The position numbers were made by a program, and so were the translations under genes. Shown in pieces: positions 568 through 2,204 of a stretch of 64,000 bases of DNA. Origin of the DNA: Rhodococcus erythropolis NBRC 15567 (GTDB lineage Bacteria; Actinomycetota; Actinomycetes; Mycobacteriales; Mycobacteriaceae). How positions within the stretch are numbered: position 1 is the first letter of the stretch; every line of letters begins with the position of its first letter. The notes beneath the pieces were generated by a model. That model was not told the DNA's origin. It did no database searches and saw only the letters and a program-made list of their open reading frames with translations. The DNA lies in the NCBI RefSeq assembly GCF_001552595.1, contig NZ_BCRM01000001.1:310001-374000 (forward strand), written 5' to 3'.

Positions 568-687
568 ATGTCAGCTGACCTTCTGGCTGCACTGAGGACC
601 CTGATTACCGGGGTGGCACCCATTCTTGGGGGCTCAATAGACATTTTGAACACGATGTCTACCAACGACTATTCGAACGAAGGGTGA
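568..687 (+). CDS. Micro-ORF 1: 39-aa acidic amphipathic peptide
   Basis: First of four tandem small genes. AGGTAGGAG lies just upstream of the ATG and serves as ribosome-binding site. The peptide starts MSADLLAALRTLITGV and ends in a polar tail (STNDYSNEG). It has one Arg and four acidic residues, so it is net negative; the first 30 residues could form an amphipathic or membrane-inserting helix. There is no Sec signal peptide, no Cys and no recognisable domain. The stop is 5 bases before the next ATG, so the four genes look like one transcript. Mycolata such as Corynebacterium make leaderless acidic peptide porins of similar size (PorA, PorH), which is the nearest analogy I know. That is inference from size, charge and tandem layout, not sequence homology. 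Confidence 0.6.
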   Translation: MSADLLAALRTLITGVAPILGGSIDILNTMSTNDYSNEG

Positions 688-692
688 GCGGT

Positions 693-806
693 ATGGAATC
701 CGTCGCAGAGGCGACGTCATCGTTGGGCGAGACAGTTGCCCAGATGCTGCCGACATTGTTTTTCATGTTGATTCAACGTCCACTCGAACTTTCGATGGGC
801 TTCTGA
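693..806 (+). CDS. Micro-ORF 2: 37-aa acidic hydrophobic peptide
   Basis: Second tandem small gene. The ribosome-binding site (GAAGGGTGAG) overlaps the stop codon of micro-ORF 1, suggesting translational coupling. The peptide has a polar acidic N-terminal third (MESVAEATSSLGE), then a strongly hydrophobic core (LPTLFFMLI), and ends in SMGF. It has four Glu and one Arg. No secretion signal, Cys or known motif is visible. Length, charge and pattern match its neighbours although the sequences are not obviously related to each other. Confidence 0.55.
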   Translation: MESVAEATSSLGETVAQMLPTLFFMLIQRPLELSMGF

Positions 807-820
807 GGGGAAGGTAAGGC

Positions 821-922
821 ATGTCGCTTCAGCCAATTATGAGTGATTCTTTGGGGCTTGCTGCAATGGTGTGGCCTGCTCTCTCTGAATACCTCACCGC
901 ATTTCTGATCTCTCTATCCTGA
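821..922 (+). CDS. Micro-ORF 3: 33-aa hydrophobic peptide
   Basis: Third tandem small gene, preceded by GGGGAAGG at normal spacing and starting 14 bases after the stop of micro-ORF 2. The peptide is the most hydrophobic of the set: MSLQPIMSD, then Leu/Ala/Trp-rich sequence, then EYLTAFLISLS at the C terminus. It has one Asp, one Glu and no basic residue, so it lacks the positive N-terminus expected of a signal peptide or a cationic bacteriocin. A single transmembrane or amphipathic helix is plausible. Function unknown. Confidence 0.55.
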   Translation: MSLQPIMSDSLGLAAMVWPALSEYLTAFLISLS

Positions 923-936
923 GAAGGAGTACAAAG

Positions 937-1071
937 ATGTCGTCAGACTACTGGGCAGGGATGGTCAATCTCATGTCGAGTTTCGTTGGGGTTGTATTGT
1001 TCGGCCTCAGCACTGCTTCCGCCGAAGGTGCGGGCTGGTCCAGCGCAGAGTCGCTCAGCGCCGGCAGGTGA
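937..1071 (+). CDS. Micro-ORF 4: 44-aa peptide with hydrophobic core and polar tail
   Basis: Last of the four tandem small genes, with the best ribosome-binding site of the set (GAGAAGGAG, 6-7 bases before the ATG). The peptide begins MSSDYWAGMVNLMSSF, continues with a hydrophobic stretch (VGVVLFGLS), then TASAEGAGW and a Ser/Glu-rich tail ending AGR. TASA could be read as a signal-peptidase site, but there is no basic n-region, so secretion by Sec is doubtful. A perfect GC-rich hairpin lies about 80 bases downstream and probably ends the transcript. Confidence 0.55.
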   Translation: MSSDYWAGMVNLMSSFVGVVLFGLSTASAEGAGWSSAESLSAGR

Positions 1072-1080
1072 CGCCACTTG

Positions 1081-1182
1081 ATTGGTGGACGAATTCACCA
1101 ATCTCGTAGCTCGAAAGATGTTTCGGCACAAGTGTTTTCTGAAGTTGATTGATGAGGTGGGCGCACGTGGTGCGCCCACCTC
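1081..1182 (+). terminator. Hairpins ending the micro-ORF operon
   Basis: Two hairpins follow the last micro-ORF. The first (1081-1102) has a 7-bp stem, ATTGGTG paired with CACCAAT around an 8-base loop. The second (1154-1182) is a perfect 13-bp GC-rich stem, GAGGTGGGCGCAC paired with its complement around a 3-base loop, followed by TCTTCG rather than a true U-run. Such U-poor strong hairpins are usual terminators in actinobacteria. Confidence 0.75.
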
Positions 1183-1592: not shown

Positions 1593-2090
1593 ATGGGATT
1601 TAAGAGAGTCGGAATTGGTGCGGGTGTTCTTGCGTCCGCCGCTGCCCTCGCGTTCGCAGGAACCGCTTCTGCCGCTCCCGCGGTCGAGGCCGTACCTACC
1701 GCTGATTACCAGCTGTGTGGCAATGTTTACAGCGGTGCGGGGTTGGAGTACAACGCCGCACCACCGGCGGCCGCACAAGGTGTCTCCGGGGTCGTAATCT
1801 CCGGCGTGATTAGCACGGCACCCTCCACGACGTATACCGCGACCACCGATTCAGCGGGGCGTTACTGTATCCAGGCTCCGAATACGATGAAGGCTGATGT
1901 ACTGGGCGGAGCCACGGTCAAGCTCACTGCCGGCACCCCGCCGTCACCGTTCACCACCATCACCAACAATCCGTGGAAGAGTGCAGCAGTTTTCGGGACT
2001 ACGAACATCGGAACGATCATTTTTGCAGCGCATCAGTACGGATCGCTCAGTTCCAACTCGGCGTACCACTTTAATTTCGTTGCCTCGTAG
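1593..2090 (+). CDS. Small secreted protein of unknown function (165 aa)
   Basis: The protein opens with a classical Sec signal peptide: MGFKRVGIG, a hydrophobic Ala/Leu core, and ASA before AP at about residue 28. The mature part is about 137 residues, rich in Thr, Ala, Ser and Gly with two Cys (in QLCGNVY and RYCIQA) that may form a disulfide. The segment TTYTATTDSAGRYCIQAP resembles a strand pair of an Ig-like or CNA-B-like beta domain, but I cannot name the family. I chose this ATG because the signal peptide begins there and GAAAGG lies upstream; an in-frame ATG 39 codons earlier would bury the signal. It lies alone between two hairpins. Confidence 0.75.
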   Translation: MGFKRVGIGAGVLASAAALAFAGTASAAPAVEAVPTADYQLCGNVYSGAGLEYNAAPPAAAQGVSGVVISGVISTAPSTTYTATTDSAGRYCIQAPNTMKADVLGGATVKLTAGTPPSPFTTITNNPWKSAAVFGTTNIGTIIFAAHQYGSLSSNSAYHFNFVAS

Positions 2091-2174: not shown

Positions 2175-2204
2175 GGGGTGGGTGCAATCCAATGCACCCA
2201 CCCC
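2175..2204. terminator. Terminator hairpin between convergent genes
   Basis: A perfect 12-bp stem (GGGGTGGGTGCA with its complement) closes a 6-base loop and is followed by GTTTC. It lies between the secreted-protein gene and the oppositely transcribed Lrp-type regulator and could serve both strands. Confidence 0.75.

Follow-up and report, generated by a model that had tools for sequence, protein, structure and literature searches.

Little is known of the mycomembrane proteome, and to our knowledge alpha-helical peptide porins of this membrane have been described in Corynebacterium only. The O-mycoloylation of PorA/PorH porins on Ser is attributed to MytC/Cmt1. PorA, PorH and ProtX have no identifiable signals according to PMC12632848. 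PorA and PorH have been modelled as a 5+5 ring, with mycoloylation residues S15 and S56 (PMC12632848 and PMC11927696), and PorA is described as a helix-linker-helix in PMC11927696. The serines that are O-mycoloylated in C. glutamicum lie near Ser, Gly and Ala, and a strict motif is absent (PMC11066868). The MspA porins (PF09203) of Rhodococcus, Nocardia and Mycobacterium are built differently, each being one signal-bearing protein of ~200 aa; PMC9233653 describes them for R. corynebacteroides and R. ruber.

We analyzed a 64-kb stretch of DNA (here, the window) from a 6.59-Mb genome in which an initial annotation had pointed to four consecutive micro-genes, p1 to p4, resembling peptide porins. 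These four frames are conserved genes, usually linked to a fifth gene that the annotation had left out. We compare them below with the described systems and weigh what they may do.

The peptide operon and its linked gene

All four peptide genes lie on the forward strand. The first, p1 (568-687), encodes a leaderless acidic peptide of 39 aa with the signature GGSxDGLNTMS, and p2 (693-806) encodes 37 aa with the signatures SLGQTVxQMLP and, at the C terminus, PLxLSxG. They are followed by p3 (821-922), of 33 aa with an invariant D9 and a C-terminal FLxxLS, and p4 (937-1071), of 44 aa with the signature GLxTASxxGAGWSS. These lengths and the spacers of 5, 14 and 14 bases are those originally reported. 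Clear ribosome sites had been claimed for all but one frame, and by eye they are indeed clear for p1 (AGGTAGGAG, 553-561), p3 (a purine-rich site, 805-819) and p4 (GAGAAGGAGT, 921-930), and weak for p2, where a purine-rich stretch (681-691) overlaps the end of p1 and a mechanical scan also gives a five-letter match. The products are net acidic and free of Cys, as the annotation had it, with charges of -3, -3, -2 and -2 for p1 to p4. Its perfect 13-bp hairpin 3' of the operon also holds up (1154-1182, forward strand, arms 1154-1166 and 1170-1182; -28.7 kcal/mol, z -5.4, equalled by 0 of 200 shuffles). This hairpin has no T-run of a canonical terminator, and a terminator scan gave 0 sites; a longer hairpin stands 3' of p4 in Rhodococcus sp. 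ARC_M6 too. A promoter scan was uninformative, with two weak sites against 1.0 expected.

The annotated interval, 568-1182, captured the peptide operon and omitted the linked gene S (1593-2090, forward strand), which encodes an exported-looking partner of 165 aa with a signal-like N terminus (by eye) and is closed by its own hairpin (2175-2204, forward strand; -31.6 kcal/mol, z -6.1). Two Cys residues are invariant in all 19 aligned S members. Most loci have S upstream of p1, and in ARC_M6 it ends 9 bases 5' of p1; the window and G150:C10 have it downstream. AlphaFold2 models S as a sandwich (pLDDT 79.8, pTM 0.74). The best structural matches by VIA, SpaD (Z 8.9, 3.5 A over 105) and SpaA (Z 8.9, 2.6 A over 106), have a Z little above the 7-8 typical of models without a clear match. 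Foldseek favours the Ole e 1 type (best E 4.9e-4), and profile matches are weak, with CarboxypepD_reg in 7 and SdrD_B in 4 of the 19 members and the window S under the cut-off. We predict from the model that S is a CnaB/Ole e 1/transthyretin-like sandwich. Its likeness to CnaB, SdrD-B, transthyretin-like and Ole e 1 domains lies in the predicted fold and the weak profile hits, but identity is ~8-20%, and S is a stand-alone, exported-looking protein with two Cys of its own. Adjoining S on the reverse strand (2285-2812) is an Lrp/AsnC-type regulator, which probably serves the adjacent kynurenine-catabolism-like genes (identified by eye).

Conservation, selection and movement

The annotation had staked the frames on their conservation in relatives, and a p2 profile search followed by reading of the loci showed p1-p4, in unchanged order, in 13 of 401 family genomes. 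The 13 genomes match at E <= 2.2e-18 and the next match stands at 0.002; rows at E >= 0.002 were left out of the counts. The first p4 profile, built from two rows, placed the operon in 12 genomes, with rows at E >= 0.0018 and the isolated frame G021:C93 left out; genome G198, dropped at first with a p4 E of 0.096, is a true member by p2. One genome (G101) has a p4 frame broken near its end. ARC_M6, which belongs to the same genus as the host of the window, carries p1, p2, p3 and p4 in order with 51, 65, 42 and 56% identity to the window. A DNA scan with one p2 pattern recovered at least seven named loci, in Rhodococcus sp. ARC_M6, Rhodococcus sp. P-2, R. tukisamuensis, Speluncibacter jeojiensis, Prescottella equi DSM 20307, P. 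agglutinans and P. defluvii. Other genomes of the search were putatively assigned to these names by their identical peptides. The hosts of the cassette thus far seen are Rhodococcus, Prescottella (including R. equi), Speluncibacter and further genera.

Codon-level selection, the other check that had been proposed, was assessed by a simple Nei-Gojobori count on nine pairs, five of them informative because three are nearly or wholly identical and one repeats another. Pooled dN/dS is 0.19-0.38 across the five. It is 0.36 between P. agglutinans and P. defluvii (dS 0.37) and 0.38 between two R. equi-like alleles (p1-p3 only); the three more distant pairs give 0.19, 0.24 and 0.20, at a dS of 1.3-1.65 that is near saturation. 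Among the three uninformative pairs, one is identical and two differ by one and three synonymous changes, with zero non-synonymous changes. We also applied a filter, chosen after the peptides were known, for frames of 25-70 aa with a ribosome site, few K, R, H or C residues and a charge <= 0. Eighteen frames pass on both strands of the window, p1-p4 among them, and outside p1-p4 there are at most two per 450 nt. Because order is conserved in relatives, and given the dN/dS values and the filter count, p1-p4 are real genes under purifying selection at the codon level, and chance frames are ruled out as their explanation. The expectation that gene callers miss them is supported: two public plasmid records list only one of the four peptides each, in a PLSDB gene table that is incomplete by its own statement.

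Searches of the window's own genome with the p4, p2 and S profiles found no second copy of p1-p4 or S, the one extra p4 match having an E of 0.54. ARC_M6 has a second p4-like frame standing alone (G021:C93, or L041 2961-3110 in reverse-strand coordinates, with no p1-p3 near) and an S fragment at G021:C100:1475; both look like remnants of lost copies. The R. equi-like loci L112 and L113 (4868-5271) share 38 of 40 residues in p1 and 24 of 39 in p3, as if p3 had been exchanged or were under diversifying pressure.

The S profile matched 19 of the 401 family genomes, and 18 were kept, G213 having matched only through the signal peptide of a 322-aa frame; the G021:C100:1475 fragment was also set aside. 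The p1-p4 set is present in 12 of the 18, and tiny peptides lie within ~1 kb of S in 17, with two peptides only in G089; in G017, S is present and peptides were not found near it. Conversely, G130 has p1-p4 and no match to the S profile. The S frame is broken beside intact p1-p4 in P. equi DSM 20307 (L037 4261-4745) and P. agglutinans (L038 4352-4769), so S is dispensable in these two Prescottella genomes. Four R. equi-like IMG/VR contigs (L112-L115) carry an intact S.

Where p1-p4 are absent, other tiny and mostly acidic peptides form arrays near S in four genomes (G180, G207, G067 and G040), with five peptides in G180, G067 and G040 and at least four in G207; in G180 and G207 the array starts ~0.8-1 kb past S. 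Two additional S loci in G150 are each accompanied by four other peptides. Five of these divergent arrays (G150:C4, G150:C10, G067, G040 and G180) were aligned to the slot order p1-p2-p3-p4, and the score of 101.5 bits (shuffle mean 34) was reached by 1 in 20,000 shuffles. The sequences of the five arrays thus fit this order, the support coming mainly from the two G150 arrays and slots 1-3, which carry the signal; slot 4 contributes -1.3 to 4.7 bits. The five-peptide arrays at L121, L122 and L118 have an extra Gly/Ser/Ala-rich peptide of 62-65 aa between slots 2 and 3. Comparison of p1 with p4 by hhalign (probability 31%, reached by 0 of 150 shuffles) is no more than suggestive of distant paralogues.

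We compared frames of at least 100 aa flanking the cassette at 11 loci, and S was the sole family found at more than two (8 of 11). An Lrp-type regulator, a dehydrogenase-like and an Lsr2-type family (named from sequence) link two loci each. In a tree of joined peptides from 15 loci, the copy on plasmid p1-WH99 of P. equi groups with Rhodococcus P-2 (support 0.93), the copy on plasmid RQCS_2 of R. qingshengii is nested within the Prescottella group (0.94), and G150 stands apart from the other g10 genomes. The cassette therefore moves horizontally, because S alone among the larger genes is shared by three or more of the 11 loci and the tree of the peptides disagrees with the species. Those two plasmid records were found with the p2 of ARC_M6; the window S matched none, and the WH99 S matched its own record only. 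On RQCS_2 a second S follows p4 (L116 5830-6261), which puts one copy of S on either side of the cassette.

The cassette is also present on four IMG/VR contigs, two of which stop at p3. An integrase (E 1e-43) lies ~1.2 kb beyond p4 in L114, which we read as a prophage or island beside the cassette, with the cassette not its cargo. Phage cargo was rejected as an explanation, the p2 of ARC_M6 having no match among 50,697 phage records. Nor did a tRNA anchor emerge, as tRNA genes are found at only 1 of 21 loci (L037). The Lrp-type regulator was dropped as a cassette member, occurring at 5 of 23 loci and in unlike places. Genes for Lsr2-like proteins (xenogeneic silencers) lie downstream at 5 of 23 loci and were not counted as part of the cassette: 0.2 kb past p4 in L037 (5593-5781), L039 (5583-5807) and L114 (5590-5778), 1.2 kb past p4 in L040 (6584-6775), and, in L116 (7123-7302), 0.9 kb beyond its second S.

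Order-wide, p2 found its own genome and two weak matches inside long frames among 397 genomes, and S found its own genome and three weak matches (E 4e-5 to 8e-4, in frames of 406, 3552 and 351 aa) among 200; both figures are whole samples and not counts of genomes outside the family. These searches returned no convincing member outside the family.

Comparison with known families

As far as we could find, p1-p4 belong to no known family by sequence. They match no family in Pfam or NCBIfam, and up to E 1 PADLOC has 0 families that match p1-p4 or S. The best hit in PHROGs is p4 to a 52-aa family of unknown function (E 0.01), with none for S, and PDB sequences hold nothing credible for S, p1, p2 or p4. 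Hits of p2 to TALE proteins in the PDB (best E 3e-7) were dropped, as they come from a 12-residue repeated stretch of which 0 stretches pass alone. A literature search, with subscription journals largely outside its scope, found no paper describing this gene set or the set in its hosts.

The initial likening to PorA and PorH stands as to general character, by analogy, and fails as to homology, which profile comparison did not find. PorH was retrieved from 10 of 121 genomes of one genus (Corynebacterium, judged by the PorH-PorA pair), and by eye a PorA-like frame follows PorH in all 10 loci; 9 PorH and 8 PorA entered hhalign, after removal of one PorH and two of the PorA-like frames. The best pair with p1-p4, p1-PorH, has a probability of 12% and E 0.0024, at 15% identity over 27 columns, and the seven other pairs fall below 1%. 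Column shuffles of three of the eight pairs reached the score in 0 of 150 cases for p1-PorH, 63 of 150 for p4-PorA and 22 of 150 for p2-PorH. We count the p1-PorH score as no evidence of membership.

The peptides nonetheless look alike in kind. Both sets are neighbouring, tiny, leaderless, acidic and Cys-free, come from mycolate-bearing hosts and show alpha-periodicity. In the family-averaged hydrophobicity of p1, p2 and p4 this periodicity is detected at p = 0.006, 0.001 and 0.03, and it is absent from p3 (p = 0.22); the same test gives 0.002 for PorH and 0.001 for PorA. No dedicated exporter is known for either set, and PorAH is itself a proposed hetero-oligomer. The differences are equally plain. 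The cassette lacks homology to PorA and PorH, has four (or five) subunits instead of two, is usually linked to S, and is accessory and horizontally moving. Across 43 aligned peptides the net charge of p1-p4 is -4 to 0 and the family means are -1.1 to -1.9, whereas PorA (mean -4.7) and PorH (mean -6.3), each represented by three sequences, are more acidic. In addition, p1, p2 and p3 are shorter than PorA (45 aa), and p1 modelled alone is a single helix of middling confidence (pLDDT 73, pTM 0.32), without the helix-linker-helix of PorA.

Other described families are more distant. MspA porins share the hosts and, under the role proposed below, would share a channel function in the mycomembrane, but p1-p4 are peptides of 33-44 aa; neither they nor S of the window match PF09203 up to E 10, and none of the 19 S members does up to E 1. 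Multi-peptide leaderless bacteriocins of the aureocin A70 type likewise consist of several leaderless peptides of ~30-40 aa in tandem; p1-p4, in contrast, are acidic to neutral and form four unlike families instead of near-copies, and no transporter recurs among flanking frames of at least 100 aa. Beta-class phenol-soluble modulins, likened here by description only, are also leaderless, amphipathic, acidic, ~44 aa long and in tandem, but belong to a different phylum and have no S partner.

A possible assembly in the mycomembrane and its alternatives

We tentatively propose as the likeliest reading, at a little under an even chance, that p1-p4 come together in the mycomembrane as a helical assembly of several peptides, with S as an exported partner. 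The four peptides and S would then make up a cassette of five genes that is accessory in mycolate-bearing actinobacteria and moves horizontally. Having no leader, p1-p4 would exit the cell by the same route as PorA, PorH and ProtX, and the recurrence of no flank family of at least 100 aa but S at more than two of 11 loci gives no sign of a dedicated exporter. They may be O-mycoloylated on conserved serines in a Gly/Ala/Ser context (GGS in p1, TAS/WSS in p4, the C-terminal LS in p3). Such serines are S23 (10 of 11) and S31 (11 of 11) in p1, two in p2 (11 of 11), the last residue of p3 (11 of 11) and two in p4 (10 of 10), in families that are 19-23% Ser plus Thr and Cys-free throughout. The peptides would co-assemble as a hetero-oligomeric alpha-helical complex, in its simplest form a pore or a permeability channel built from four unlike helices, and S might act on the periplasmic or outer side as scaffold, cap or assembly factor. 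Beyond the conservation of the genes, we infer every step; the porin idea is plausible by analogy only. The broader notion of a mobile multi-peptide envelope machine, in which four to five unlike, slot-bound micro-proteins work with an exported two-Cys sandwich protein and are unrelated to PorA/PorH, MspA, bacteriocins or modulins, is possible but doubtful.

Several observations count against a mycomembrane assembly: the missing homology to PorA and PorH, their higher acidity, the lack of helical periodicity in p3, a PorAH of two subunits without S, the presence of MspA porins in the hosts already, and an S that is undetected in G130 and disrupted in two genomes of Prescottella. A competition weapon would also agree with the patchy distribution and the location on plasmids. 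Such a weapon would be a four-peptide leaderless bacteriocin or other membrane-active agent against other mycolate bacteria, with S serving as its extracellular partner or protecting the producer. An accessory cassette in 13 of 401 genomes that moves horizontally would suit it, as would hydrophobic peptides that lack leaders and are encoded in tandem, each with a ribosome site of its own, and the strongly different p3 alleles of the R. equi-like sequences. Known leaderless bacteriocins are cationic, however, and p1-p4 are not; S is the sole recurrent larger neighbour, in a test that a small immunity protein would escape, and G130 keeps p1-p4 with no S detected. We regard this reading as unlikely; if true, the weapon would be an unusual acidic multi-peptide one.

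The resemblance of S to pilin and SdrD-B type sandwich domains (SpaD, SpaA) and the short, amphipathic, Ser-rich peptides would both agree with secreted surfactants or a surface coat, like phenol-soluble modulins or chaplins, with S as a surface adhesin or pilin-like domain. Yet such fold matches are common, no sorting signal is seen by eye in S, and four unlike, strictly ordered slots favour a stoichiometric complex over a bulk surfactant; we give this account a small chance. That p1-p4 are small inner-membrane proteins, whether regulatory or resembling type I toxins, with no connection to the outer layer, seems to us very improbable: their length and hydrophobicity do allow membrane insertion, but they are linked to the exported-looking, two-Cys S, the four are co-conserved, and the genomes searched yielded the cassette in the mycolate family alone.

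Whatever its role, a gene set across Rhodococcus, Prescottella and Speluncibacter has been partly skipped by annotation, is under codon-level selection and moves between species, on plasmids too, which suggests that operons of proteins below 45 aa are easily missed. If the mycomembrane assembly is true, the cassette would offer a natural four-part system for the crossing of the inner membrane by signal-less peptides and their assembly outside, and drug or phage entry could change. Such an assembly would be an accessory and not the general porin, since MspA porins are present in all 13 cassette hosts. The R. tukisamuensis-like genome G105 has nine MspA-family matches, four of them clustered on C46:6919-9663; some of the rest sit at the ends of contigs and may be assembly duplicates.
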